Of a DNA stretch of 64,000 bases, positions 17,641 through 30,099 are shown one piece after another. Every line of letters starts with the position of its first letter. The stretch's first letter is position 1. The notes beneath the pieces were generated by a model. It searched no databases. It was given only the letters and a program-made list of their open reading frames with translations, and was not told the DNA's origin. This stretch comes from Bacteroidota bacterium (lineage in GTDB: Bacteria; Bacteroidota; Bacteroidia; Chitinophagales; Chitinophagaceae): positions 868,001 to 932,000 of the forward strand of contig JAFDXK010000001.1 in assembly GCA_018267965.1 (NCBI GenBank), given 5' to 3'. The position numbers and the translations under genes were made by a program.

Positions 17641-17648
17641 TAGTTTTG
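17641..17648 (+). promoter_or_regulatory. possible -7 element for the small-gene set
   Basis: TAGTTTTG fits TANNTTTG; a good -33 TTTG at the right distance is not present. It would place the transcription start near 17655, which favours the ATG at 17673 over the TTG at 17646 for the next gene. Confidence 0.35.
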
Positions 17649-17672
17649 AGTAAACAATTAAAACTATTTTTT

Positions 17673-17981
17673 ATGGCAGTTGATTTAAACAGTATTCCTA
17701 CCGCAAATACAATAGAGTTCACTGTAACTTTTTTCAATCGAGGTGATCGTGTTGCTCGCATTCCATATGGAGGTAGCGATGTTCTTAATTGCAGATTTGA
17801 CGCTATAGGTGTTGGCAATGGCGACCCCCTATCAATTTATGAGCTTGAAACACCCGGTAGTTATACCATTTCTCCGGGAAACCTTGCGTTTGTTGATCGT
17901 AGCGTAAACTCGAAAATAGCATTGCGTTATGGTGTTCCTGGTGGCGCACAGCAAAGCATAATATTCGCTATGCCAGCCTAA
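17673..17981 (+). CDS. small orphan protein, probably all-beta
   Basis: 102 residues from the ATG at 17673 (an upstream TTG at 17646 overlaps the predicted promoter). No signal peptide, no membrane span, no motif I recognise. The sequence alternates short hydrophobic strands with Gly/Pro/Asn turns (IEFTVTFFNRGDRVARI, GSYTISPGNLAFVDRS, KIALRYGVPGG), which suggests a small beta-sandwich. It is the first of three consecutive rightward small genes facing the leftward R-body locus. Function unknown; a cargo or effector role is speculation. Confidence 0.6.
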   Translation: MAVDLNSIPTANTIEFTVTFFNRGDRVARIPYGGSDVLNCRFDAIGVGNGDPLSIYELETPGSYTISPGNLAFVDRSVNSKIALRYGVPGGAQQSIIFAMPA

Positions 17982-18012
17982 TTATATAGAAGTGTCAGGA
18001 TTAATATCTTAC

Positions 18013-18034
18013 CAAGTTTTTGCGTAAAAACTTG
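18013..18034 (+). other. perfect hairpin between two small orphan genes
   Basis: CAAGTTTTT, loop GCGT, AAAAACTTG, 9-bp arms without mismatch. No T tract follows on the + strand. It could be a weak terminator or RNA-stability element after the first small gene. Confidence 0.45.
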
Positions 18035-18077
18035 AAAGGGGTACAAAGTAAATTTTTAAATTATAATCTATTTAGCT

Positions 18078-18515
18078 ATGCCAGTTATTGCAAATGTCGG
18101 TGAAATTGTAGATACATATGATGGTGAAGAAGTTGGAACACGAGGCTGTGACCCTTGTGTTGGCCTTGTAGTGATTTACGAAAACGGCACAAAAAAATGT
18201 GCTCATTTTTGTGTGAGTTATGCTGGACCTTATACCCAAGCCAATATTAATGCACGATTAAATCCAATACTTCTTGCAAATTTTCCCAATGTAGAAATTA
18301 CAAGCGTGGGATTTACTTGGGGTGGAAATACACCTGGTCAAGGTGCAGAGCTGATTTGTAACAGGTTACTCGAATATTTTCACAACAATGTTGCGGTGAC
18401 TAGCAATACAAATGATAGCATCATATCAAATGGTGATGGGGTACAAATTTCAAATCTCCAGGTTTGGCCTTTCACAAATGATCCTGCATCAAATCAGTTT
18501 GCTGATTTGGCATAA
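18078..18515 (+). CDS. small orphan protein with CheD/CNF-like Cys-His pattern
   Basis: 145 residues, no signal peptide. The segment from Cys27 (CVGLVVIYENGTKK) to AHF at 42-44 reads like the active-site region of CheD deamidases, where a Cys followed by hydrophobic strand residues is about 17 residues before the His of a (G/M)AHF motif. Further on, VGFTWGGNTPGQG and ICNRLLEYF recall the CheD GGA...IGxRN...L stretch. CheD and the CNF1 toxin share this glutamine-deamidase fold. Similarity is by eye and short, so this is a hypothesis. Four cysteines (24, 27, 41, 45) cluster around the site. No chemotaxis genes are nearby. Confidence 0.55.
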   Translation: MPVIANVGEIVDTYDGEEVGTRGCDPCVGLVVIYENGTKKCAHFCVSYAGPYTQANINARLNPILLANFPNVEITSVGFTWGGNTPGQGAELICNRLLEYFHNNVAVTSNTNDSIISNGDGVQISNLQVWPFTNDPASNQFADLA

Positions 18516-18593
18516 TAATCAAATCATAGCAGGCTGATTTTGAAACATGCTAAAACTGTCACTAAGTAAAGCAGCTATCAATCTAATAAACGT

Positions 18594-18609
18594 ACCGACC
18601 CCGTTCGGT
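18594..18609 (+). other. short hairpin upstream of the third small gene
   Basis: ACCGA, 6-nt loop, TCGGT, about 35 bp before the ATG at 18645. Small and possibly fortuitous. Confidence 0.25.
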
Positions 18610-18644
18610 CAATAACAAATGGGGGGCGAAACCCGAAAAGCCAT

Positions 18645-19022
18645 ATGAGTAGGATAAATTCTTTTATTATGCCAAGATTAACTCTACAATCAGTTACAAC
18701 ATGTATTATGGCAGCTTTTGCTCAATACAGAACCAACACTGCAGGTACAATAACAGTAGCAACAGGACAAGGTAATGTAGATGTAACCTGTGTAATCCAT
18801 GGTTCAAGATTCAATACTGGATTCCCGGGATATACTATGAGCGCTGCTGACATAGTAGCGTTACGCGAATGGTGCATTACACATCCCGGCAATTTAGGGT
18901 TAGGTGGTGCTGATTGGTCCTTTGGATTTAGGGGCGTAGCTCCTGATCATATTGATTCGGTGAATATCACGCTTATCAACCTGACACCCAATATGTTCAA
19001 TTTTCATGTCTATCTGTCTTAA
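18645..19022 (+). CDS. small orphan protein
   Basis: 125 residues; an internal ATG at 18669 (MPRLTLQSV) is a possible alternative start. No signal peptide or membrane span, no recognised motif. It looks like a compact mixed fold (TVATGQGNVDVTCVIHG, SAADIVALREWCITHPGN, HIDSVNITLINLTPNMF). Third of three rightward small genes; a strong bidirectional hairpin follows and separates it from the converging glycosyltransferase gene. Function unknown. Confidence 0.6.
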   Translation: MSRINSFIMPRLTLQSVTTCIMAAFAQYRTNTAGTITVATGQGNVDVTCVIHGSRFNTGFPGYTMSAADIVALREWCITHPGNLGLGGADWSFGFRGVAPDHIDSVNITLINLTPNMFNFHVYLS

Positions 19023-19093: not shown

Positions 19094-19123
19094 TTATAAA
19101 GCCGCGAATGAGCGGCTTTATAA
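19094..19123. terminator. bidirectional terminator ending both the small genes and the R-body/glycosyltransferase run
   Basis: TTATAAAGCCGC, 6-nt loop, GCGGCTTTATAA, perfect 12-bp arms flanked by A/T tracts, located between two converging genes. Confidence 0.85.
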
Positions 19124-19143: not shown

Positions 19144-19812
19144 TTAACTATTGCATTTTAAAATGCCTCTAACAGTGGCTACATCTTCTTTTTGCCATAA
19201 TACACTATTTATATGTTTGGGACTTGTATTCCTACCGTGTAATATTGAAATGAAGCCGTTTATATAATCGTGTGAAACTACTTTGCCATTAGAATACCAT
19301 ACAAATTCATTGTCTTCGCCTACTTGCAGATCTTTGAAAGGATTGTTTTCCCAGAATTGTTTGCGATATGCCATAGTAGCGCCTGCTACCCAATGCAGGC
19401 CATCGGGTGGGTATGTATATTTCCAGCAGCGGCCGGTAACTGGTGCATAAAATCTCAACTGGCTTAATCCACATATGTCTGCATTTGTTTCTTCGAGTAT
19501 AGCTACCTGGTGACTCACCCAATCACTTGCATACCAGTCATCGTCGTCTAAGTGAATAATAATCTCTCCGTGTGCAATACCACATGCATAGTTACGTTTT
19601 GTGCCAATTGTCATCGGGCCATGCCAAAGCCTGAGATATATAATATGCGGATTATTCGGTATCAAATGTTGAACGGATTTGATGCCGTCGTCTATAATGA
19701 TTAATTCTTTATTGTAATAGTCCTGATTGAGGAAAAGTTTTATTGCTGTTGGTATAAATCTGGCTCTGTTTGCAGTTGGCATAATACAAGAAACAAGCGG
19801 CTGAGCTGTCAT
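19144..19812 (-). CDS. family 2 glycosyltransferase
   Basis: 222 residues with the GT-A start VSCIMPTANRARFIPTAI, an acidic LIIIDDG and the metal-binding IIHLDDDDWYA near residue 92. No membrane span, so probably a soluble enzyme. It is the last gene of the long leftward run whose upstream part is the R-body gene array; the gap to the next gene upstream is 10 bp. Donor and acceptor cannot be inferred. Confidence 0.8.
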   Translation of the reverse strand: MTAQPLVSCIMPTANRARFIPTAIKLFLNQDYYNKELIIIDDGIKSVQHLIPNNPHIIYLRLWHGPMTIGTKRNYACGIAHGEIIIHLDDDDWYASDWVSHQVAILEETNADICGLSQLRFYAPVTGRCWKYTYPPDGLHWVAGATMAYRKQFWENNPFKDLQVGEDNEFVWYSNGKVVSHDYINGFISILHGRNTSPKHINSVLWQKEDVATVRGILKCNS

Positions 19813-19822
19813 AAGAAGAGTA

Positions 19823-20530
19823 TTATGAGTGCAAATGATATTTGTGGGTCTTTAGGAGATAATCTACATTTCTTAGATCATTTTCTATAGGCTTACGCGG
19901 ATAAAGATGAATAGGTACATATATTGGCAATAATTCAAGCATATATACAATGCTGGTGCTAACTGTGTGTATTTCTGTAGCTTGCTCAATAACCTTGGCC
20001 CAATCGAATATACTGAAGCCCGGCATCGCTTTCATTTCCACATTAGGCAAAGCATTGTCAGGACATATATTAATCATGAACTGATTATCGCTGCCGAAAG
20101 TGTTATTGATCAAGTTGTACTTAGTATTTTTCCCTACAATATTTTGAAATAAAACATCTTCTCTTTCCTGGTCTCTTTTCCATTGTGCTGATTCTTTCCA
20201 AAGTCTCCAATCTACATTATAAAGTATATACTTGGCAGACATGCATTTTTCATATGGTAGGTTTAATATAGAGTCTGCCCATCTTATTGGAAGTAACCTT
20301 TTATCGTCGACAATACAATCGGTCTGTGTCTCATAATTAACACCCGTACAACGATAATCTAACCATTCTATATTCTGATATGCTCTCTTTAATCCGTCGA
20401 CAAATTGAGGTAGAACTCCCCAGCATATTGGTTTTGTACCTGCGATAGCCCTAACGAGGGTTTGAGTAAATATAATATCACCTATACCGAAATACTGCAA
20501 AGGATATACGGCTTTATATTGTTTTATCAT
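19823..20530 (-). CDS. putative glycosyltransferase-like protein (GT9-type layout)
   Basis: 235 residues. The opening QYFGIGDIIFTQTLVRAIAG resembles the glycine-rich N-terminus of ADP-heptose-type GT-B enzymes, and the end (SIFDWAKVIEQATEIHTVSTSIVYMLELL) resembles the donor-binding half in which a site near S/T-x-x-x-H senses nucleotide sugar. It is short for that family (about 340), so it may be a reduced or divergent member. It lies between two GT2 genes, which fits a role in sugar transfer. Function is inferred mainly from layout and context. Confidence 0.5.
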   Translation of the reverse strand: MIKQYKAVYPLQYFGIGDIIFTQTLVRAIAGTKPICWGVLPQFVDGLKRAYQNIEWLDYRCTGVNYETQTDCIVDDKRLLPIRWADSILNLPYEKCMSAKYILYNVDWRLWKESAQWKRDQEREDVLFQNIVGKNTKYNLINNTFGSDNQFMINICPDNALPNVEMKAMPGFSIFDWAKVIEQATEIHTVSTSIVYMLELLPIYVPIHLYPRKPIENDLRNVDYLLKTHKYHLHS

Positions 20531-20584
20531 GCTTGTGTCGGTAGCTATATAATCTCTTAGTAGGATACTGTCTTTATCAAATAT

Positions 20585-21853
20585 CTATATTGGTAACATA
20601 TTGGCAGGTATATCAGAATTGCTAAAGTTCACTTTAGTCCCTTTGAACCCGAATTGTCCTGAATAATCATTTCCACCTGAAAAAATCGATGAACCATATG
20701 CCTCAATGCTGAAATTATTGGCGACTTCTTCTGTAGCGAATCGTATTCCGTAATCATTTTCAAGCATGTTCCTATAAGAACGACAAATATGATGATCGTG
20801 AGGGTGCATCAGGTTTGAAGGAATATTTAATTCAGACAATATGCTGCAGAGTTTTTTGCTTCGTAATGAAAACCCCCCGTTGCCAACATTTTTATTGTCT
20901 TTATATCCCCATGTTGCACCTATATAATCCCATTTGAGCCAATCATCTTCCCATTTACGCCAATTAACTATATAAGCATCCGGTTGAATAGTGAGGACAT
21001 GTGAAGTGTCAAACTGATAGGCTAAATTTTTCATCATAAAACGGGAGTAGGCATATGGCCAGTCATTTGTATCATAGCCCGATACACTACTATCCTCTAT
21101 AATATTAACAGCTCCAAACTTAATGTCTTTCTGGCTGATTTGTGCAGCTCGCTGTATATTACCATTGCGTCCGTTGATACCAAATAACGTAACATCGGGC
21201 AAAAAAAGATGTGTGAAATCAAGAGCATAATCTATATCATCATGCCCCATAGAGCTAACATCTCCAATATGCTGAACTACTGACGGCGTTGAAATAATAA
21301 ATTGCAGATCGTCAGCCTGGCACATCATCGATGCCATTCTATCCCAATTTATAGAATTACCAAACGTTGGCTTTATGTAATTGTAATATTGTTCACTACT
21401 AAAGCACATGTTTATGCCATTCGCGTAGTTTTTAGTACAATATGTATCAAACTGGTTTATTACCGGATTGTAATCATGATGAGTGTTAAATCCTGAGACA
21501 ATCTGTTTCCCATTACCAGCATTGTGTAAAAGGAGTAGTGTGTCAATGAAGTCAGGTTTGACGATTGCATCGCTATCGAGGTTTATTAACATATCGCACC
21601 CACTTGCTACTGCATCATCAAGACCTTTTGCCAAAGCATTCTGAACTCCTGAATTTCGAGGTAGTGTTATCACTTTCACGATATTCAGTTTTTCTGCAAA
21701 TTGCTGCAACAATACTTGTACATCTTTATCGGTACTTCCGTCATTTACAAATATCATCACATCCGGGAGCCTGCTAAGCTTAGCAAGACTATCCAGGCAT
21801 TGCCTCAAGTAGTTTATACGGTCAAATACCGGAATAACCAACGCAACCTTCAT
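20585..21853 (-). CDS. two-domain glycosyltransferase: GT2 plus DUF5672-like domain
   Basis: 422 residues. Residues 1 to about 215 form a GT2 domain (VALVIPVFDRINYLRQCLDSL, FVNDGSTD, and INLDSDAIV as the DXD site near residue 93). From about 225 on comes a second domain with YAYSRFMMKNL, LTIQPDAYIVN, YIGATWG and VGNGGFSLRSKK, the pattern I know as DUF5672, a glycosyltransferase-like family. Such fusions may add two sugars or modify a protein. It follows the YodC-like gene by about 50 bp in the same direction as the R-body genes. Confidence 0.75.
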   Translation of the reverse strand: MKVALVIPVFDRINYLRQCLDSLAKLSRLPDVMIFVNDGSTDKDVQVLLQQFAEKLNIVKVITLPRNSGVQNALAKGLDDAVASGCDMLINLDSDAIVKPDFIDTLLLLHNAGNGKQIVSGFNTHHDYNPVINQFDTYCTKNYANGINMCFSSEQYYNYIKPTFGNSINWDRMASMMCQADDLQFIISTPSVVQHIGDVSSMGHDDIDYALDFTHLFLPDVTLFGINGRNGNIQRAAQISQKDIKFGAVNIIEDSSVSGYDTNDWPYAYSRFMMKNLAYQFDTSHVLTIQPDAYIVNWRKWEDDWLKWDYIGATWGYKDNKNVGNGGFSLRSKKLCSILSELNIPSNLMHPHDHHICRSYRNMLENDYGIRFATEEVANNFSIEAYGSSIFSGGNDYSGQFGFKGTKVNFSNSDIPANMLPI

Positions 21854-21902
21854 TATTCTTGTTTTAACTATAATATTCCGGACCTATAAAAAATACGTGA
21901 TA

Positions 21903-22103
21903 CTATGCTCCATAACTAGCTACTGAAGTAGATGGGTTTTTTACGACTTTTAATAGGAAAGCCATAAAATGTGCTGAACTGTAGCGTCCGGATTCAGTAT
22001 CATACCATATACACTTGACAACATTTCCGGACACTCTTGCTATTGTCATATTTGGCCCGCCAGATATTAACTGGACTATATCGCCTGCGTTTAATACTTG
22101 CAT
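21903..22103 (-). CDS. YodC/DUF2158-family small protein
   Basis: 66 residues beginning with GDIVQLISGGPNMTIARVSGN and VKCIWYDTESG, which matches the short beta-barrel YodC/DUF2158 family (GDxVxLKSGGPxMTV...CxWF). Function of the family is unknown. It sits in the leftward run between the coiled-coil gene and the glycosyltransferases. The stretch after residue 45 is longer and more hydrophobic than in typical members. Confidence 0.75.
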   Translation of the reverse strand: MQVLNAGDIVQLISGGPNMTIARVSGNVVKCIWYDTESGRYSSAHFMAFLLKVVKNPSTSVASYGA

Positions 22104-22154
22104 AGTAATGTTTATTTAGATTATGAATATTTTATACCCCCTCTGCCAATATCA

Positions 22155-22643
22155 TTAGTATTTTATCCCCTCTGTTATTTTCTCAACATCAATCATAGCA
22201 TTGTTTAGGATACCCATTGCCTTCTCAAGTCCTTCTTCTGTATATCGCATAGCATTGCCGGCGCTTTCTTTAGCCTGTATCATAGCAATTTCCCCAAAAT
22301 CGGTTTCTTTATAATGCATTTCATTGCATTGTTCTTCTATCTCTGCAGTATCTGTCTCTGAATATGTATTATAGTCTTCTATTTTAGCGGGTGGGTTGCT
22401 ATGGCCTTTATGATGTTCATTAATAGATGCCAGAATATCGTTCTCCATTTCAATCAATTTTTTTGTTTGTGAACTGTGAATTGTATCTATTACTTGTTTC
22501 AGTTGTAATGCAGTATCATTCTGTTGTTTTTGAACAACCTGTTTATACGTATCAAGCTTCTTTTTTACTTCATGGCGAATGCCATTTAGAGCATCATGGC
22601 TATTTGTCACCGCTGCTTGCTCAGTTTTTTTTTGTTGTTGCAT
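22155..22643 (-). CDS. coiled-coil protein of the R-body locus
   Basis: 162 residues, no signal peptide. Residues 20-85 are strongly helical and charged (HEVKKKLDTYKQVVQKQQND, LKQVIDTIHSSQTKKLIEME), then an acidic linker, then a small-residue-rich amphipathic helix (AMIQAKESAGNAMRY ... KAMGILNNAM) that recalls the Ala/Asn-rich helices of Reb proteins. It follows the RebB array in the same direction. A structural or assembly role in the R-body is a reasonable guess from context. Confidence 0.6.
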   Translation of the reverse strand: MQQQKKTEQAAVTNSHDALNGIRHEVKKKLDTYKQVVQKQQNDTALQLKQVIDTIHSSQTKKLIEMENDILASINEHHKGHSNPPAKIEDYNTYSETDTAEIEEQCNEMHYKETDFGEIAMIQAKESAGNAMRYTEEGLEKAMGILNNAMIDVEKITEGIKY

Positions 22644-22676
22644 GAATGAGAGTTTTAAAAGTTAAAACTTAAATAA

Positions 22677-22706
22677 GCTATGCACCGGACTTGACCGATG
22701 CATAGC
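22677..22706 (-). other. 12-bp stem hairpin between the RebB array and the coiled-coil gene
   Basis: GCTATGCACCGG, loop ACTTGA, CCGATGCATAGC with one mismatch. No T run follows on the minus strand, so rather than a clean terminator it may be a processing or stability element that sets different levels of the RebB array and the genes behind it. Confidence 0.5.
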
Positions 22707-22806
22707 GTAGTCCATTGCAAGTTGGTGTGCTCCGACAGTAAATGTATAATGACAACTAAGTTTTATAGCTTTTGTCAGTGTTGTTGAACGTCGGGATATA
22801 CCATTT

Positions 22807-23073
22807 TTATACACCCAGGATCTTAGTAGTTCCTACAGCATCTGTAGCCGTATCAATGGAGTAGAGTGTTGTAACACCAGCAGTTGTTGCAGCTTGAGCA
22901 GTGATATTAGTTTGTTGCTGGCCTGCTACTGCATTGTGTGCAGCATTTGCTAATGCCTGAGCTGTTGCCTGGTAAAGGTTGCCCATTGCTATTGCAGGAG
23001 CGTCACCTAATACTTTTGTGTTTACTTGTGTTACTGAATCTGTGATGTAACTGTTTACCGGAGTTGGTAGCAT
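22807..23073 (-). CDS. RebB-family R-body protein, tandem copy 1
   Basis: 88 residues. The family pattern is clear: N-terminal PVNSYITDSVTQVNTKVLGDAP, central AMGNLYQATAQALANAAHNA, then QQQTNITAQAATTAGV and TTLYSIDTATDA. RebB-type proteins assemble into R-bodies, coiled protein ribbons that unroll with pH or other triggers in Caedibacter and several Proteobacteria. Last of five near-identical tandem genes; it is followed by a hairpin. Upstream sequence before the ATG (TTTTAAAAAACAACAATT) is shared with copies 2 and 3. Confidence 0.9.
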   Translation of the reverse strand: MLPTPVNSYITDSVTQVNTKVLGDAPAIAMGNLYQATAQALANAAHNAVAGQQQTNITAQAATTAGVTTLYSIDTATDAVGTTKILGV

Positions 23074-23123
23074 AATTGTTGTTTTTTAAAAGTGAAGAAT
23101 AATAGTTAGTCGTTATGTGTTTT

Positions 23124-23393
23124 TTAAACAACTCGCAAGATGTCTCTTGTGCCTATAGCATCAGTAGCTGTATCAATAGAGTATAATGTTGTAACACCTG
23201 TTGTAGTAGCTGCTTGTGCTGTGATGTTGGTTTGCTGTTGACCTGCGGTTGCATTGTGTGCTGCATTTGACAGTGCTTGGGATGTTGATATAAACAAATT
23301 TCCCATTGCCATTGCAGGCGCATCGCCTAACACTTTTGTGTTTACCTGCGATACCGAATCAGTGATGTAACTGTTTACTGGAGTTGGTAACAT
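23124..23393 (-). CDS. RebB-family R-body protein, tandem copy 2
   Basis: 89 residues. Nearly identical to copy 3 (differences at only a few sites around LFISTSQALSNAAHNATA and the last residue), so the two arose by a recent duplication. The centre reads MAMGNLFISTSQAL in place of the GNLYQATAQAL of copies 1 and 4, and the C-terminus IGTRDILRVV differs from the other copies. Such variants may be non-equivalent subunits of one ribbon, as RebA/B/D are in known systems. Confidence 0.9.
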   Translation of the reverse strand: MLPTPVNSYITDSVSQVNTKVLGDAPAMAMGNLFISTSQALSNAAHNATAGQQQTNITAQAATTTGVTTLYSIDTATDAIGTRDILRVV

Positions 23394-23441
23394 AATTGTT
23401 GTTTTTTAAAGTGAATAATAATTTTCAAAGTGACTAATGTT

Positions 23442-23711
23442 TTAGATAACCCTAAGGATATCTCTTGTACCGATGGCATCTGTAGCTGTATCAATAGAAT
23501 ACAGTGTTGTAACACCTGAGGTAGTCGCAGCCTGCGCTGTAATGTTAGTTTGTTGCTGGCCTGCTACGGCATTATGTGCAGCATTCCCTAGTGCTTGCGA
23601 TGTTGCAATGAAAAGATTTCCCATTGCCATAGCCGGAGCATCTCCCAAAACTTTGGTGTTCACCTGTGATACCGAATCGGTAATGTAACTGTTTACTGGA
23701 GTTGGTAACAT
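23442..23711 (-). CDS. RebB-family R-body protein, tandem copy 3
   Basis: 89 residues, sister of copy 2 (centre GNLFIATSQALGNAAHNAVA, end IGTRDILRVI). The conserved block QQQTNITAQAATT and TTLYSIDTATDA is unchanged. It has the same 5' leader as copies 1 and 2. The 48-bp gap to copy 2 and the 29-bp gap from copy 4 point to a single transcript. Confidence 0.9.
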   Translation of the reverse strand: MLPTPVNSYITDSVSQVNTKVLGDAPAMAMGNLFIATSQALGNAAHNAVAGQQQTNITAQAATTSGVTTLYSIDTATDAIGTRDILRVI

Positions 23712-23740
23712 AATTGTTGTTTTTTAAAAGTGAATAATAA

Positions 23741-24004
23741 TTACTTTAAAAGCTTCGATGTGCCAGCTGCATCCGTAGCTGTGTCAATAGAATACAGAGT
23801 TGTTACTCCTGCAGTTGTAGCTGCTTGCGCTGTGATGTTAGTTTGCTGTTGATTCATTGTGGCATTGTGTGCCGCCATTGCTAGAGCTTGTGCAGTTGCC
23901 TGGTAGAGGTTACTCATAGCCACAGCAGGAGCAACTCCCAAAGCCATTGTATTGGTCTGTGTTATCGAATCTGTTATTAGACTGTTGACTGGTGTTGGTA
24001 GCAT
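23741..24004 (-). CDS. RebB-family R-body protein, tandem copy 4
   Basis: 87 residues. It differs from the others at the start (PVNSLITDSITQTNTMALGVAP) and in the helix NLYQATAQALAMAAHNATMN, but keeps QQQTNITAQAATTAGV and TTLYSIDTATDA. Its end (AAGTSKLLK) is like copies 1 and 5. It is one of the more divergent members of the array and may be a distinct subunit type. Confidence 0.9.
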   Translation of the reverse strand: MLPTPVNSLITDSITQTNTMALGVAPAVAMSNLYQATAQALAMAAHNATMNQQQTNITAQAATTAGVTTLYSIDTATDAAGTSKLLK

Positions 24005-24042
24005 GATCTTTGTTTTTTTGTGTGACTACTAATGTGAAATGA

Positions 24043-24303
24043 TTACAGGATTTTTGCTGTTCCGGATGAGGTTGAGGCCGTATCAATAGAATAGAGCGTA
24101 GTCACTCCCGCGGTTGTTGCTGCCAAAGCTGTAATATTCATTTGTTGTTGTTGGGCTGTTGCATTGTGTGCAGCATTTGCAAGAGCGTGTGATGTCGCGA
24201 TATAGAGATTGCCCATTGCAACGGCCGGTGCATCGCCCAATACAAGCGTGTTGACCTGAGTAACTGAGTCGGTGATATAACTATTGACTGGTGTTGGTAG
24301 CAT
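24043..24303 (-). CDS. RebB-family R-body protein, tandem copy 5 (first of the array)
   Basis: 86 residues, first of the five full-length copies to be transcribed. N-terminus PVNSYITDSVTQVNTLVLGDAP, centre GNLYIATSHALANAAHNATA, then QQQQMNITALAATTAGV and TTLYSIDTASTSSGTAKIL. Both the Met in QQQQMN and the Leu in ITALAA break otherwise fixed positions. Its leader differs from that of copies 1-3. Confidence 0.9.
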   Translation of the reverse strand: MLPTPVNSYITDSVTQVNTLVLGDAPAVAMGNLYIATSHALANAAHNATAQQQQMNITALAATTAGVTTLYSIDTASTSSGTAKIL

Positions 24304-24402
24304 GATATTTTTTTTAACGTGATTGTCGACTTATTGGCGATCTTTTATTGTAATAATGTTTTATTGTTCCAAATTCAAACTGTGGTCTCTTTTGTTAGTA
24401 TA

Positions 24403-24630
24403 TCAACCAAATTTTACCGATAGAATCAGAGCTACAGCCTGTGCCGTGACCGCAGTACCTACCTGATTCCCTTGCTGCTGTGCTACTGTTGCATTATGAG
24501 CTGCATTAGCGAGTGCCTGTGCTGTTGCCTGATACAGATTCCCAAGAGCCACAGCTGGGGCGCTCCCGATAGATTCGAGATTTACTTCTGCAATTGAGTC
24601 TGTAATCTGTGAGTTAACTTGCGATGGCAT
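24403..24630 (-). CDS. short RebB-family protein
   Basis: 75 residues. The N-terminal two thirds are RebB-like (VNSQITDSIAEVNLESIGSAP, ALGNLYQATAQALANAAHNATVAQQQGNQ), but the C-terminal TTLYSIDTA block is replaced by AVTAQAVALILSVKFG. It may be a cap, nucleation or regulatory subunit instead of a ribbon subunit. It lies between the full-length array and the proline-tailed Reb-like gene. Confidence 0.82.
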   Translation of the reverse strand: MPSQVNSQITDSIAEVNLESIGSAPAVALGNLYQATAQALANAAHNATVAQQQGNQVGTAVTAQAVALILSVKFG

Positions 24631-24687
24631 TTACATTTTTGAGTTACGCAATGAAAACAACTATAGTTTGCTCTTAACACGGAATTA

Positions 24688-25032
24688 TTATTTGTTTCCG
24701 GGTGGTGATGGTGATGGGGGCGATGACGGTGGTGAATGCCATGGCGGTGACGGTGGTGACGAAGGTGGTGAATACCATGGAGGAGACGGTGGTGGTGAAG
24801 CTGGTTTCTTAGCTTTTGGTGGAGATACTGACAAAATTTTAGCACATGTTGATGTTGTTGTTGCTGAATTTACTATTTGTGCATTATGTTGGGCGTTTAC
24901 AGCATTGTGCATAGACATGCCGATTGTTTCCACCATTACATTGCCTAGTAATCCCTGAGACTGTAAACCTGCAGCTCTTGATAACAATTGCTGAATATCA
25001 GCCACAGAATTATTAATCATATTATCTACCAT
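24688..25032 (-). CDS. Reb-like protein with proline/serine-rich C-terminal tail
   Basis: 114 residues. Residues 1-68 show a Reb-like helix (IGMSMHNAVNAQHNAQIVNSATTTSTCAKIL corresponds to the AMGNLYQATAQ...HNA...QAATT block). From about 69 on the tail is PxxPP repeats: SPPPSPPWYSPPSSPP, then SPPWHSPPSSPP, ending SPPGNK. Two WY/WH-SPPSSPPSPP units are visible. The tail could bind a surface, cell wall or other proteins. The DNA here is strongly strand-skewed, so the opposite strand reads as a Gly/His-rich frame, which is a shadow. Confidence 0.75.
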   Translation of the reverse strand: MVDNMINNSVADIQQLLSRAAGLQSQGLLGNVMVETIGMSMHNAVNAQHNAQIVNSATTTSTCAKILSVSPPKAKKPASPPPSPPWYSPPSSPPSPPWHSPPSSPPSPSPPGNK

Positions 25033-25041
25033 ACCAAAAAA

Positions 25042-26073
25042 TTATATCATGTTATTGTTAATTTCAGTGCCCGGAAGAATAAACACATTGCCTGCATTGT
25101 CAGCTCCAATCATTATCCTTACTCCCTTTTCGCCTGTATATTTAAGTGTGATTTGTTTGCCGTCTTGAGATACGCTATATCCTTTTAAATTGATTGTGCC
25201 CAGCAATGTTTTGATAAGGTCATTGTATACTTTTGTTTGACTTCTCAAATCATATTCTTCAAGCTTATCAAAATCTACATTTTTAACAAGGTTAAGTATC
25301 GCTGAAGAGCAGGTAGCATACCCCAAAGGGATTGGTGAATCGGCAAATTGCCTTATTGCGTCTGCCAATTCTTCCTTTGACATTCCAGGACCAACGCTGG
25401 AAGTAAATAAGGTATTATAAATGCCACTTGATAATTGTTCGTATTTAGAATTGGCATCTGCCGTTACTTCATTTGGAGTTAGTTTTTTATTAACAGCGTC
25501 GTTGGCGACATATATATAAAATGAAGCTAAATCTAGAAACTCATTCAATGTTACCGATTTACTTTCTGCAAAATCAAATGCTGCTGACTTCACTTGTGGG
25601 GATATAGACTTGTAATAGTTTACAAATACATTTGCATATAACAAGTCATTGAAAGAAGGTTGTGCAAAGAAAGGCTTATTGCCAGAAACATCTGATTGCA
25701 ATGCCTGAACAGACTGTTCCATTGCTGCATATGTTGTTATGCTGTTTGCCTTTAAAATATCCTGTATAGCTTTTTTATCAACCTGTTTGCCATTATAATA
25801 GTCTGCCAGACTCTTTATATCGGCATCAGTCATTGTGAATATCTTCTGGATACTTATTCTAAAGTCAGCAAACCTTATATAATCTTCATCTTGCAAAGCA
25901 TTTACTGCAACGCTCAATAACTGATTTTGATCGGTTACTACGATGTCATTACCCGCATTTTTCATAGCCCAGTCAAGCCAGCTTTGTCCATTTGGTATCA
26001 TGGAAAGTATGCTTTGGAAACGCGCGTCAAATTTCCGCGTATTATCCAACTGGTATGCTTTTATGTAGATCAT
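25042..26073 (-). CDS. 343-aa orphan protein in the R-body locus
   Basis: No signal peptide, no membrane span and no motif I recognise. The first 220 residues look mostly helical (FDARFQSILSMIPNGQSWLDWAMK; DADIKSLADYYNGK; LNEFLDLASFYIYVANDAVN), and the end looks beta-rich (GKQITLKYTGEKGVRIMIGAD, GNVFILPG). It lies between two Reb-like genes with gaps of 9 and 26 bp, so co-expression is nearly certain. It may be an assembly factor, an R-body-associated protein or cargo. Confidence 0.65.
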   Translation of the reverse strand: MIYIKAYQLDNTRKFDARFQSILSMIPNGQSWLDWAMKNAGNDIVVTDQNQLLSVAVNALQDEDYIRFADFRISIQKIFTMTDADIKSLADYYNGKQVDKKAIQDILKANSITTYAAMEQSVQALQSDVSGNKPFFAQPSFNDLLYANVFVNYYKSISPQVKSAAFDFAESKSVTLNEFLDLASFYIYVANDAVNKKLTPNEVTADANSKYEQLSSGIYNTLFTSSVGPGMSKEELADAIRQFADSPIPLGYATCSSAILNLVKNVDFDKLEEYDLRSQTKVYNDLIKTLLGTINLKGYSVSQDGKQITLKYTGEKGVRIMIGADNAGNVFILPGTEINNNMI

Positions 26074-26099
26074 GTCTTTTGAATTGTTGCTGAGGTATG

Positions 26100-26423
26100 T
26101 TAACTATTGGGGAATCCACTTAGTATGTTAGTCGCCGCAGTTCCGATTGCCTGGAAATTTGTAACAGCTGCTAAAGAAGCAGTTTGAGCTTCTGCTATAA
26201 TACTAGACCATGGCTCAGGGCTTTCTGTTGCCAGCATTTGGGCCATTGCCACGCCTATTGCAGTTGTACTGATTGTGTTCATATTTCGAAGATTATCAAC
26301 TGCATCTTGTATTGCTATTGCAGAAGATTGTGCTACTGACTGATACGCCTTACCTGCTCCTTCTTCTCTTATTAGTTCAGGTGTGATTGCCAAGTCGGAA
26401 ACTACAAGTTGTGTGTCTGCCAT
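26100..26423 (-). CDS. divergent Reb-like protein
   Basis: 107 residues. The segment AYQSVAQSSAIAIQDAVDNLRNMN ... TISTTAIGVAMAQML lines up by eye with LYQATAQALANAAHNAV...ITAQAATTAGVTTLY of the RebB copies. The N-terminus (VVSDLAITPELIREEGAG) and the C-terminal 35 residues are unique. Second gene of the leftward run. Membership of the family is likely but not certain by eye. Confidence 0.65.
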   Translation of the reverse strand: MADTQLVVSDLAITPELIREEGAGKAYQSVAQSSAIAIQDAVDNLRNMNTISTTAIGVAMAQMLATESPEPWSSIIAEAQTASLAAVTNFQAIGTAATNILSGFPNS

Positions 26424-26503
26424 ACAATTTTTGTTTTTATTTATTTAGCTATTGTTATGATAGCCTTGGAATTATTTTCTCTGGTCAATTAGAATTATAA
26501 AAC

Positions 26504-26665
26504 TTAGCCTTTGGGCGCAGGCTGTTGCATGAGAATCATCTTGCAACAAGACGCCATTGCAGTATTAGCAATATTCTGACAGTTATGCTGATTTGTTGAT
26601 GCATTATCCATTGCTATTCCTATGGAAACAGCCATGCTGGAAAATGTGAGTTGTAGTGAATTCAT
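26504..26665 (-). CDS. 53-aa Reb-like mini-protein, first gene of the R-body run
   Basis: ATG at 26665, stop at 26504. The sequence SMAVSIGIAMDNASTNQHNC followed by QNIANTAMASCCKMIL matches the Reb-like core of the proline-tailed protein (IGMSMHNAVNAQHNAQIVNSATTTSTCAKIL) position by position, with no N-terminal TDSV segment and a short QQPAPKG tail. It carries three cysteines within 13 residues (C29, C40, C41 region). Coding potential is supported by this family match. It is easy to miss because of its length. Confidence 0.7.
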   Translation of the reverse strand: MNSLQLTFSSMAVSIGIAMDNASTNQHNCQNIANTAMASCCKMILMQQPAPKG

Positions 26666-26722
26666 GATACTATTGGTTTGTCGAGTTCTAATTTTTTTGG
26701 AAAAAATTTCAAACTTGTTTTA

Positions 26723-26730
26723 CAAAAATA
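26723..26730 (-). promoter_or_regulatory. possible -7 element ahead of the R-body run
   Basis: Minus strand TATTTTTG fits TANNTTTG, 58 bp before the first Reb-like ATG. No matching TTTG is seen at the usual -33 distance, so an activator may be needed; the adjacent tandem-AraC protein and the LuxR-type regulator are candidates. Confidence 0.35.
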
Positions 26731-26769
26731 CTTTCATGAGATACGCTATTCTTTGTATGCATTTTGCAA

Positions 26770-27585
26770 TTACTTATCATTTTGAATCATTGAAATCCAG
26801 GATATAGTTAATTCACTTTCGCTGTGAATATGAAAATCAGAAGGTGGATATCCAAACACTGCTTTAAAAGAACGGCTGAGGTGTGCAGGGTCAAAAAAGC
26901 CAGCTCTGTACGCTACATCAGATATACTGCCAATCTTGTTTGATAGCAGTTCACAGGCATACAATAGCCTTAATTTTTTGATAAAATCTCTTGGAGTCAT
27001 AGATAGTGTTTTTTTTAGACTTCGATTTAAGCTAGACGGACTCACACATAATTTTTCAGCCAATTGTATTACTGTAAGGTTCTCATTATCCACATTCTCC
27101 AAAACTGTTTTTGCAAGTTCTATCAGCCAGTTCTTTGTTTTGATAAGCTCCCTCAATGACGTAAGGCTATTGACGGATGATGTCGACTCTGCTACTTTTT
27201 TGTTGTTGAGTATGAACTCTTTTCTGAATTGTGAAGGACTACATTGAAAATGCTTGTAAAAGCATCTGTTGAAACTTGTTTGATTATAAAACCCGCTTTT
27301 TAAAGCAATACGACTTAAAGTATCATCGCTTTCTAATAGCAATTGTCTTGCATATCCGATACGATAATCAGCTATTAGTTTGCTGGGAGTATTGCCTGTA
27401 ACGTTGTGTATTTTACGGTTAAGCTGTTGAGTGCTAATATGCATCATGTCAGCCAATTGAGACACCCCGAAATTTTGCTCCCTACATTTTTCGCTTATGA
27501 AGGCCTCTATTTTCTGTAAAAACGTTCCATCGTTTACATTCGATGGCTCTATACTAACAGGTTGTTTAGATGGTGATGGCGACAT
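26770..27585 (-). CDS. transcription regulator with two AraC-type DNA-binding domains
   Basis: 271 residues. First AraC-type domain at about 27-125: FGVSQLADMMHISTQQLNRKI, then DDTLSRIALKSGFYNQTSFNRCFYKHF. Second at about 160-262: LTVIQLAEKLCVSPSSLNRSL, then GSISDVAYRAGFFDPAHLSRSFKAVFGYPPSDF. No ligand-binding cupin, receiver or membrane domain is present. AraC proteins usually have one such pair of helix-turn-helix motifs; two in tandem could let one chain hold two sites. It ends about 100 bp before the first Reb-like gene and points the same way, so it is a likely local regulator. Confidence 0.85.
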   Translation of the reverse strand: MSPSPSKQPVSIEPSNVNDGTFLQKIEAFISEKCREQNFGVSQLADMMHISTQQLNRKIHNVTGNTPSKLIADYRIGYARQLLLESDDTLSRIALKSGFYNQTSFNRCFYKHFQCSPSQFRKEFILNNKKVAESTSSVNSLTSLRELIKTKNWLIELAKTVLENVDNENLTVIQLAEKLCVSPSSLNRSLKKTLSMTPRDFIKKLRLLYACELLSNKIGSISDVAYRAGFFDPAHLSRSFKAVFGYPPSDFHIHSESELTISWISMIQNDK

Positions 27586-27961: not shown

Positions 27962-28633
27962 CTAGTTTACTTTGACTATGTTGTTTCTTACTGCATATAA
28001 GACTAAGCCTGTAACATTACGTGAGCCAGTTTTTTGTAGCAGGTTATTACGATGTCCGTTTACTGTTTTTACACTCAGATATAGTTTTTCGGCTATTTCT
28101 TCGGCTGTATGTTGTTGGCACACTAGCTGTAGTATTTCTTCTTCTCTTCGTGTAATCTGAACATCTTGTTTTGGCACTTTCAATTTTTTATTCATTTTAT
28201 GCCGAATTGCTTTCAATGTGCGTTCGTTAATATAGGAGCCCTTGTTGTAAACAGATACAATAGCTTCATATACCTCTTGCGGGTCAGACTCTTTTACCAG
28301 GTAACCATGAGCGCCACTTTCTATAAGCTGAGTTATGAAATTTTCATCTTCATGTACGGATAGTATTAGGATTTTTATTTGCGGAAATGATGAAGCCAAA
28401 GCTAATGTTACATGTAAACCACTGAATTCTTTGGCGTTATCCGGTGGAAGCGAGAGATCTACCAGCATCACATCAGGTAGGGTATTGCTATTCTTTAATT
28501 TGTCAATAACCGTATATCCTTCAGCTGATTCAAATATTACTCGAATATCTTGCCATGTGTTCAGTATCGCTTTCATGCCTTCTCTAAACAGGAACTGATC
28601 CTCAACCAAACCAATGTTTATTACTCCCTCCAT
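27962..28633 (-). CDS. NarL/LuxR-type response regulator
   Basis: 223 residues. Receiver domain with the acidic pair E11-D12, phospho-acceptor D59 in VMLVDLSLP and Lys in YLVKESDP; DNA-binding domain at about 158-223 with TRREEEILQLVCQQHTAEEI and LSVKTVNGHRNNLLQKT. It partners with the histidine kinase encoded 45 bp upstream. Being the nearest signalling module to the R-body genes, it may control them, but it could also act elsewhere. Confidence 0.92.
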   Translation of the reverse strand: MEGVINIGLVEDQFLFREGMKAILNTWQDIRVIFESAEGYTVIDKLKNSNTLPDVMLVDLSLPPDNAKEFSGLHVTLALASSFPQIKILILSVHEDENFITQLIESGAHGYLVKESDPQEVYEAIVSVYNKGSYINERTLKAIRHKMNKKLKVPKQDVQITRREEEILQLVCQQHTAEEIAEKLYLSVKTVNGHRNNLLQKTGSRNVTGLVLYAVRNNIVKVN

Positions 28634-28678: not shown

Positions 28679-29470
28679 TTAATGCTCAATTGGTATTGCA
28701 ATACTTGCATAAAAACCGCATGTTTGGCTAGTGCCTGCTTTAAAAGTACCATTGAGTATATTGATTCTCCCATCAATGCTTTTAAATCCGAGACCTTTAC
28801 TTATATCGTTACCTGCTAAGCCTATCCCATTATCGTTGTATTCACATAGTACATGCTGATTCTCACTATGTATATCAATTGTTATTTGTGTAGCTCCTGA
28901 ATGTTTAATGGTGTTATTGATAAGCTCCATGATAATACGATATAATCCAAGATTAACTGTCCATGATAAACCCGGAAGTGTTGGTGATATATTTAAAATG
29001 ATATTGACCCCTCCTGCATTACTTACTTGTCTGCAAACCGCCTCTAATGTCTTTACAAGACCAAAAGACTCAAGTTGTGGTGGCATTAAACGATGACTGA
29101 TACTACGGATAGTAGCTATAGCTGTTTCGGATAACTGGCGTAGGTTTTGCAACTCTTTGATGATGTCTTGCTGAGGTTTTTTATTCTGTTCCAACATCAC
29201 CATATTCATTCTTATTATAGAAAGCACTGCACCTAACTCATCATGTAAATCCTGTGCAATACGTTTACGTTCTGTTTCCTGTGCTTCTATATTAGACCGC
29301 AACAGGTCATACTGATGAGCATTTTTAAGCGTTTCCTGTTTAAGTTTATGAACGTATAGGTTTTTCTGAAAGTGTTGATATAAAAACACCACTCCTGTAC
29401 CAATGATAAAAACAATAACTATAAAGGGTAATAAAGTGTCTATAAAGGCTGTGTTTTTGAGTGTTTCCAT
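28679..29470 (-). CDS. membrane sensor histidine kinase (HisKA_3/NarX type)
   Basis: 263 residues from the ATG at 29470 (a TTG at 29488 would add six). One membrane span (about 12-31), a short coiled linker, then the dimerisation motif ERKRIAQDLHDELGAVLS with phospho-acceptor H76, and an ATPase domain with N box LYRIIMELINNTIKHSGAT and G boxes DNGIGLAG and KGLGFKS. There is no sizeable sensor domain, so sensing probably involves the membrane protein encoded just upstream, whose gene overlaps this one by 31 bp. Confidence 0.9.
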   Translation of the reverse strand: METLKNTAFIDTLLPFIVIVFIIGTGVVFLYQHFQKNLYVHKLKQETLKNAHQYDLLRSNIEAQETERKRIAQDLHDELGAVLSIIRMNMVMLEQNKKPQQDIIKELQNLRQLSETAIATIRSISHRLMPPQLESFGLVKTLEAVCRQVSNAGGVNIILNISPTLPGLSWTVNLGLYRIIMELINNTIKHSGATQITIDIHSENQHVLCEYNDNGIGLAGNDISKGLGFKSIDGRINILNGTFKAGTSQTCGFYASIAIPIEH

Positions 29471-30099
29471 AGGCCTATTAAAAAACAAGTATACATTACT
29501 ATTGAAAAAAACGAATGAAGTATCCAGACAAGTCCAACTGAGCTTCTTGAAAAATGGAATAATATCATTTCACCATAATAATATATTAGTAAGCACGATA
29601 AATAGTAAATAAAAAGACCTGAATTGATCCAATTAAGACTTTTTTTATTCTGCACTTCTCTCTCTCGCATCGTATCATTCAGTAAGTATATAAAAGTAAA
29701 CAGTGAAAGTATGATGATGATAATAGATTCAAGAACAAGAGCATTTGAATTGAATTTATTGATGCTCTGTATAAACATTGAATTGATTATTGTGAAGAGT
29801 AAAAAAAACAAGACTATACTCCATGTTACTGTATTGCTAATATGATTGCCTAGGATTTTTTTATAAAATGAGACCAGGCATGGTACACTCAATGCAACAT
29901 ATAAATGCAATAACGGCATGTTGTTTTTCCCACTGAAGAAAAGTATTAAAGAGGTAAATTGAATAAACCCCGATAAGAATACAAAAAATGAAAACATTTT
30001 TAATGAAGTACACATGCTACGATATGCCCAAATGCAATTGATTACTGTTACTGCTATTGGGAGATGTGAAATGGTGATAATGGTATTTGTTAAGCTCAT
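29440..30099 (-). CDS. multi-pass membrane protein of the signalling cassette
   Basis: 219 residues with six to seven hydrophobic helices (for example IAVTVINCIWAY, FVFLSGFIQFTSLILFF, TVTWSIVLFFLLFTIINSM, LESIIIIILSLFTFIYLL). No catalytic motif. It overlaps the kinase gene by 31 bp and the lipoprotein gene by 4 bp, so it is translationally linked. Layout suggests the sensing half of a split sensor, which is inference. Similar small membrane proteins next to NarX-type kinases are common in this phylum. Confidence 0.65.
   Translation of the reverse strand: MSLTNTIITISHLPIAVTVINCIWAYRSMCTSLKMFSFFVFLSGFIQFTSLILFFSGKNNMPLLHLYVALSVPCLVSFYKKILGNHISNTVTWSIVLFFLLFTIINSMFIQSINKFNSNALVLESIIIIILSLFTFIYLLNDTMREREVQNKKSLNWINSGLFIYYLSCLLIYYYGEMILFHFSRSSVGLVWILHSFFSIVMYTCFLIGLWKHSKTQPL

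Follow-up and report, generated by a model that had tools for sequence, protein, structure and literature searches.

The 64,000-nucleotide stretch of DNA analysed here (the window; positions 868,001 to 932,000 of contig JAFDXK010000001.1, assembly GCA_018267965.1, from a member of the Chitinophagaceae in the Bacteroidota) contains a run of leftward genes with the pattern of RebB proteins, and this raised the question of whether these genes make up a complete R-body cluster and of which kind. R-bodies are protein ribbons that lie coiled and can snap open. Our analysis indicated that the locus is very probably an intact R-body cluster of Group 1, in a form common to the Bacteroidota loci found. 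An earlier note, made from the sequence alone, had listed nine Reb-pattern genes (five full-length copies, one short, one with a proline tail, one divergent and one of 53 amino acids [aa]). All of the open reading frames (ORFs) that it named were recovered at the same positions on the minus strand, and the reading frames of the Reb locus were intact. Searches with the Pfam RebB model (PF11747; gathering cut-off of 24 bits) placed seven of the nine proteins above the cut-off. The five full-length main Rebs scored 94 to 107 bits, whereas the lack of a significant match was what the earlier note had named as a refutation; these are proteins of 88 aa (22807..23073; 105.6 bits), 89 aa (23124..23393; 104.5 bits), 89 aa (23442..23711; 107.1 bits), 87 aa (23741..24004; 94.1 bits) and 86 aa (24043..24303; 103.6 bits). 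At higher coordinates lie a short main-type Reb of 75 aa (24403..24630; 85.4 bits) and a 114-aa Reb with a Pro/Ser/His-rich tail (24688..25032; 40.1 bits). The divergent 107-aa Reb (26100..26423) and the 53-aa mini-Reb (26504..26665) reached 22.5 and 23.4 bits, respectively, and their putative assignment draws support from matches to the R-body partners of other loci, as described below. Identity to the 24043..24303 copy was 76 to 84% for the other four full-length Rebs, 56% for the 75-aa protein and 15 to 24% for the remaining three. Judged by its sequence, the 75-aa protein is a relative of the main Rebs; a profile of short Rebs matched the main Rebs with an E value of 9e-30, and the short Rebs of five Bacteroidota entries formed one clade in the Reb tree (support of 96). 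The Rebs are under purifying selection, with ratios of nonsynonymous to synonymous substitution rates (dN/dS) of 0.04 to 0.16 in 7 of 10 pairs among the five paralogues and saturated dS in the other 3, although these values are rough because most of the finite dS values exceed 1.

Group 1 clusters were defined by Raymann et al. in 2013 (PMC3583457, available in part) by the presence of HP1.1 (∼360 aa), HP1.2 (∼110 to 120 aa) and the Reb-like proteins HP1.3 and HP1.4, and all four were reported there on a plasmid of A. brasilense. The comparison locus was plasmid AbAZ39_p4 of Azospirillum argentinense, whose cluster contains four Rebs, Rebs of 77 aa and 151 aa, and hypothetical proteins of 116 aa and 361 aa. 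The 343-aa protein of the window (25042..26073, minus strand) had been regarded as an orphan in the earlier note; instead, it belongs to a conserved family of R-body partners, HP1.1. This protein matched the 361-aa Azospirillum counterpart in BLASTP (3e-18; 23% identity over 318 aa), and an iterative hidden Markov model (HMM) search started from it detected the HP1.1 family in 74 of 86 loci, including that of Eleftheria. The predicted structure of HP1.1 was helical with a C-terminal sheet (predicted local distance difference test score of 92.3; predicted template modelling score of 0.89); no Pfam or NCBIfam family was detected above the cut-off, and the model had no Foldseek match at an E value of ≤0.001. 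The 107-aa protein exhibited 53% identity over 95 aa (E value of 1e-34) to the 116-aa Azospirillum protein in the HP1.2 position. In the Reb tree, the Pro-tailed Reb and the proteobacterial HP1.3 proteins shared a clade, with support of 87 to 92 in the Shimodaira-Hasegawa-like approximate likelihood ratio test (SH-aLRT); at 114 aa, the Pro-tailed Reb is shorter than the ∼170 aa of the Group 1 description. A mini-Reb profile matched proteobacterial HP1.4 with an E value of 7.9e-13 over 46 columns, and HP1.3, HP1.2 and the main Rebs with values of 3.1e-10, 3e-5 and 0.08, respectively; when taken singly, three of four Pedobacter mini-Reb copies scored equally with the HP1.3 and HP1.4 models. The window copy, shortened at its N end, lies below the ∼60- to 80-aa size of HP1.4 and on these comparisons is best read as its counterpart. 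These matches indicated that all four Group 1 partners of the 2013 definition are present in the window, and the description of a full R-body locus in the earlier note was borne out to the extent that every Group 1-defining gene was found.

The order of these genes in the window was HP1.4-HP1.2-HP1.1-HP1.3-Rebs, and the usual Group 1 order of HP1.1-HP1.2-HP1.3-HP1.4 beside the Rebs was not encountered. Gene order is not strictly defining for Group 1, as the 2013 paper describes it with the word 'often' (PMC3583457, available in part). In order to survey gene order among relatives, contigs were scanned with an HP1.2 alignment and the best 80 of 96 relatives were examined; this survey, being seeded by HP1.2, covers HP1.2-holding clusters only. 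Addition of the window and two plasmid loci gave a set of 83 loci. The surveyed relatives included members of the Pseudomonadota, Cyanobacteriota, SAR324 and Bacteroidota, with eight loci from the last phylum (five Pedobacter, Reichenbachiella versicolor and two uncultured). HP1.2 was ahead of every main Reb in all nine Bacteroidota loci, window included, one of which (L105, from a UBA5543 metagenome-assembled genome [MAG]) has a single Reb before the end of the contig. Conversely, the majority of the main Rebs were ahead of HP1.2 in all 68 scorable loci outside the Bacteroidota (74 loci in total, six having no main Reb in reach). In a tree built from HP1.1 plus HP1.2 of 57 loci, the eight Bacteroidota loci holding both genes fell in one clade (SH-aLRT of 98; quick search with SH-aLRT only and four genera limited to four rows each). 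The split of gene order between phyla suggests a single ancient rearrangement, in one direction or the other, where the Bacteroidota part from the remaining Group 1 clusters, in preference to recent exchange between the two. The permuted order as such may already have been seen, since a survey of July 2026 (PMC13430693, available in part) mentions, without showing them, that whole syntenies can be reversed; a phylum split of gene order is not stated in the available part of that survey. The UBA5543 locus differs from the window in the absence of HP1.1, and its HP1.2 is shortened, which could be an assembly fault or a real loss.

A second conserved feature of the Bacteroidota loci is the regulator at the head of the cluster. 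In the window this is a two-domain AraC protein (26770..27585, minus strand) with HTH_18 matched in two stretches (8.7e-47), and a relative of this gene was found immediately upstream of the cluster in all eight Bacteroidota loci with upstream sequence, window included, the ninth (L033) being too short. The double HTH_18 domain was confirmed by Pfam only in the window and in the locus of Pedobacter psychrotolerans (L046). Within its own genome, the next-best match to the AraC protein was 3.3e-6 and there was no other full-length match; in one Pedobacter genome (that of L035), the linked copy scored 5.8e-41 and the next 1.3e-13. Further upstream on the minus strand are a LuxR-type response regulator (27962..28633; PF00072, 1.3e-17; PF00196, 5.6e-12), a HisKA_3 histidine kinase (28679..29488; PF07730, 3e-14) and, before the kinase, a 219-aa protein that by eye is probably membrane-bound (29440..30099), with no Pfam match and no NCBIfam match above the cut-off. 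The two-domain AraC protein, the two-component genes and a YodC-like protein behind the core had all been named in the earlier note, and Pfam confirmed each of them. This cassette of 219-aa protein, kinase and regulator is shared with Pedobacter; it adjoins all five Pedobacter clusters, in the opposite orientation, with a 219-aa-like gene in each (E values of 3e-5 to 1e-7), and was not seen in the examined stretches of the Reichenbachiella and UBA5543 loci.

Behind the Rebs, a run of minus-strand genes starts with a 162-aa protein (22155..22643), which is poor in aromatic residues (5% F/W/Y/C; 57% A/Q/E/N/S/T/K), probably helical and without a Pfam or NCBIfam match above the cut-off. Composition was scored for 19 low-GC loci with a called post-core gene; the high-GC loci, many of whose post-core proteins were linked by HMM searches, and seven low-GC Cyanobacteria/SAR324 loci without a called same-strand gene were left out. 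Within bounds chosen after the values were seen, 18 of the 19, window included, encoded a post-core protein of 136 to 258 aa with ≤5% F/W/Y/C and ≥57% A/Q/E/N/S/T/K, the exception being a SAR324 locus (L103), and genes further downstream had a median of 11% F/W/Y/C (71 genes). The window protein fits this pattern by make-up and place and had no sequence similarity to the post-core proteins of the other loci. The run continues with the YodC-like DUF2158 protein (21903..22103; PF09926, 3.3e-9), a fusion of a GT2 glycosyltransferase and DUF5672 (20585..21853; PF00535, 2e-19; PF18922, 2.8e-18), a 235-aa protein (19823..20530) and a GT2 glycosyltransferase (19144..19812; PF00535, 1.1e-18). Three glycosyltransferase-type genes had been proposed; the two GT2 assignments held in Pfam, and the 235-aa protein, which is heptosyltransferase-like by eye only, had no match in Pfam (E value of ≤0.1) or NCBIfam and, of 247 phylum genomes, was found only in its own.

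The chances are even that the glycosyltransferase block (19144 to 21853) is a separate surface-sugar cassette lying downstream of the cluster by chance. None of the six other Bacteroidota loci with downstream sequence had a relative of the window glycosyltransferases behind the core, and a terminator-like hairpin of 12 pairs follows the last Reb (22677..22706, minus strand), separating the Rebs from the downstream run; this is a pattern match only, of a pattern that occurred at 18 sites in the region compared to 8.0 expected from shuffles. A second hairpin, in the convergent gap at 19094 to 19123, matched only on the plus strand and hence is no sign of the end of the leftward run. Against a chance arrangement, the genes from the 162-aa protein to the final GT2 form a tight same-strand run with gaps of 51, 49, 54 and 10 bases, varied enzymes are found behind the core in several other loci, and the DUF2158 gene of the same run recurs at the equivalent position in the Pedobacter psychrotolerans locus (E value of 6e-12), though not in other Pedobacter loci. 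The glycosyltransferases could modify the ribbon, modify the target or be unrelated.

The enzymes found at this position elsewhere vary between lineages. GH25 muramidase ORFs were detected in 16 loci (15 after removal of a contig fetched twice) from 10 of 41 genus labels, with identity established by PF01183 for those tested (L035, L049 and L052). Of these 16 ORFs, 12 followed the cluster on the cluster strand; the other four preceded it, two on that strand (SAR324) and two on the opposite one. In 21 other R-body genomes, 9 of 15 GH25 genes lay within the R-body locus (converted coordinates), a fraction that is not an unbiased rate because nine of these genomes were chosen for a link already seen; in three of the 21, GH25 was elsewhere only. 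A genome-wide search detected no GH25 in the genome of the window. Pedobacter and Reichenbachiella have GH25 muramidase and proteins without a known family behind the core, in contrast to the glycosyltransferase-like genes of the window. Other post-core neighbours included a phosphoesterase (PF04185; L050 and L068), an Rv2525c-like hydrolase (PF08924; L025), an AAA ATPase (L049 and L042), NUDIX (L091) and large proteins without a match. Proteins with eCIS_core (PF13699) were also observed behind the R-body clusters of Shewanella and Pseudoalteromonas (L034:14417-14953 and L044:16413-16847), and a GxWExWxQ-like motif was noticed by eye in post-core Pedobacter proteins (L035:14376-15673, L039:14124-15232 and L046:14382-15056), those of L035 and L046 being without a Pfam match. 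The GH25 association suggests self-lysis for release or an attack on the target. A tentative and rather improbable proposal is that the ribbons of Group 1 carry an enzymatic cargo that can be exchanged, in which case a constant core (Rebs, HP1.1 to HP1.4 and the aromatic-poor protein as an adaptor) would be combined with genes swapped between lineages behind the adaptor, comprising the GH25 muramidase, phosphoesterase, Rv2525c-like hydrolase, eCIS-core proteins, large proteins without a match and, here, the glycosyltransferases. If this were true, the genes behind the adaptor would include the killing factor that the Reb genes alone do not supply. Caedibacter RebA, RebB and RebC are sufficient for ribbons in E. 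coli, but they do not bring about killing; the 2013 paper describes the toxin, and what the partners do, as unknown (PMC3583457, available in part).

For the Group 1 cluster itself, a mode of action can be proposed from R-body biology, partly as described in PMC8322103 (available in part). The ribbon subunits would be the five full-length Rebs and the short main-type Reb, which would polymerise in the cytoplasm to give a coil. HP1.1 (343 aa) and the three minor Reb-like proteins, of 53, 107 and 114 aa, may serve specifically in assembly or as end pieces of the ribbon. The operon would be turned on by the two-domain AraC protein, possibly acting with the two-component cassette next to it. We infer that uptake of the cell, or damage to it, might be the stimulus on which the ribbon unrolls and thereby pierces membranes of the cell that had swallowed the bacterium. 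The least certain part is whether the post-core genes act with the ribbon.

Several observations weigh against the interpretation of an intact Group 1 R-body cluster. The names HP1.1 to HP1.4 were assigned by size, order and neighbourhood, two of the nine Rebs fell narrowly below the Pfam cut-off, and the dN/dS values are, as stated, rough. The 343-aa protein matched its Eleftheria counterpart weakly in BLASTP (0.002), and the HP1.1 plus HP1.2 tree flagged the branch of the window as long. In R. versicolor, a further full-length AraC protein of the two-domain type is encoded away from the Rebs (L140:11387-12259) and scored slightly above the linked copy. Finally, the main Rebs carry YITD or LITD where the motif of the 2026 survey is QITD. 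That survey gives QITD, KxxxD/E, NAV and QQ(Q) as motifs of structural Rebs (PMC13430693, available in part); ITD and QQQ were present in all five main Rebs, KxxxD in three and NAV in two, and the Q of QITD was present only in the 75-aa protein among the Rebs checked.

These motif differences, with the Q of QITD lacking in the main Rebs and the K of KxxxD/E in two of five, together with the shortness of Reb proteins and the small number of them tested so far, would suit Rebs that build something else, for example an inclusion or filament that is static, in place of an extendable R-body. This alternative is unlikely, as the Group 1 partner set has been kept, the Rebs are under purifying selection and they match Group 1 main Rebs better than non-Group 1 ones. 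In phmmer, main Rebs from the Group 1 clusters of Eleftheria and Azospirillum had best matches to the window Rebs of 2e-31 to 9e-38, compared to about 3e-22 to 1e-24 for two non-Group 1 reb clusters of the same class (G132 and G247). The latter resemble the window in having tandem Rebs and a kinase/regulator pair nearby; HP1.1 and HP1.2 were not found in them, and their main Rebs formed a separate clade (96). An unexpressed passenger is very improbable given the intact frames, strong selection and complete set of regulator and partners. It would suit the scarcity of RebB, which was found in just two of 294 family genomes and above the cut-off in none of the 14 congeners, and the location of the flanking genes on different contigs in the 8 congeners having both.

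The cluster, read as Group 1, is rare among relatives. RebB matches in the whole 3.74-Mb genome were confined to this locus (9 places at an E value of ≤1). At an E value of ≤1e-5, the two family genomes with RebB were its own and one (G676) whose contig positions fit the UBA5543 locus L105. RebB was detected in 6 of 395 phylum genomes, own included, and in 0 of 14 control genomes, and, of 390 phylum genomes, HP1.1 was detected only in that of the window. At the sensitivities used, one main Reb had no match among phages, and HP1.2 and another main Reb had none among viral contigs.

The Group 1 clusters of the Pseudomonadota (Azospirillum, Xanthomonas and Stenotrophomonas) are similar to that of the window in having several tandem main Rebs with HP1.1 to HP1.4. 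Their core, too, is followed by an Ala/Gln-rich protein and genes that vary, and many have an AraC-type regulator nearby. In contrast, the Bacteroidota blocks are permuted, with partners first and Rebs last, HP1.4 is cut to 51 to 55 aa and there is an extra 75-aa Reb. The other Bacteroidota clusters (five Pedobacter, R. versicolor and two uncultured) have an identical order and, where the sequence reaches, an AraC head gene. The regulator of the window has two AraC domains, whereas that of Eleftheria, the one proteobacterium checked, is a fusion of a Sigma54-interaction AAA domain and an AraC-type HTH near the cluster (L025:16693-18234); ORFs related to this fusion were found in 29 genus labels, not all checked for both domains. 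The reb cluster of Pseudomonas aeruginosa PA14 and Caedibacter type 51 also form Reb ribbons (PMC8322103 and PMC3583457, both available in part); PA14 has the FecI2 and RcgA regulators and RapA, and Caedibacter has RebC, and both were set against the window by description only. The earlier note considered R-bodies little described in this phylum, which holds only in part; R-body genes of Kordia algicida were known by 2013 (PMC3583457), and the 2026 survey, which left out non-Reb partners, lists Bacteroidota, with Chryseobacterium among genera having reb genes in at least 10 species (PMC13430693, both available in part). R-bodies in Bacteroidota and Group 1 are therefore each known separately. 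A Group 1 layout in Bacteroidota was not announced in any title or abstract start among the open-access papers found; within the same scope, we found no paper on a complete Bacteroidota Group 1 set with its own order and head regulator, on the post-core protein or on the muramidase link, which appear to be new here. As an example from the Bacteroidota, the locus combines the full set of four Group 1 partners with a specific regulator at its head and a defined accessory run. Comparison yields as candidates HP1.1, with its confident model and no significant fold match, the aromatic-poor post-core protein and the GH25 muramidase beside clusters in 10 groups, and the accessory genes, which vary from group to group, might aid the search for the R-body killing factor.

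Convergent with the R-body run, three small plus-strand ORFs (111, 145 and 125 aa) without a Pfam match were observed at 17646 to 19022. The 145-aa ORF, which gave a poor structure model and is CheD-like by eye only, was detected in only one of 296 phylum genomes, that of the window.

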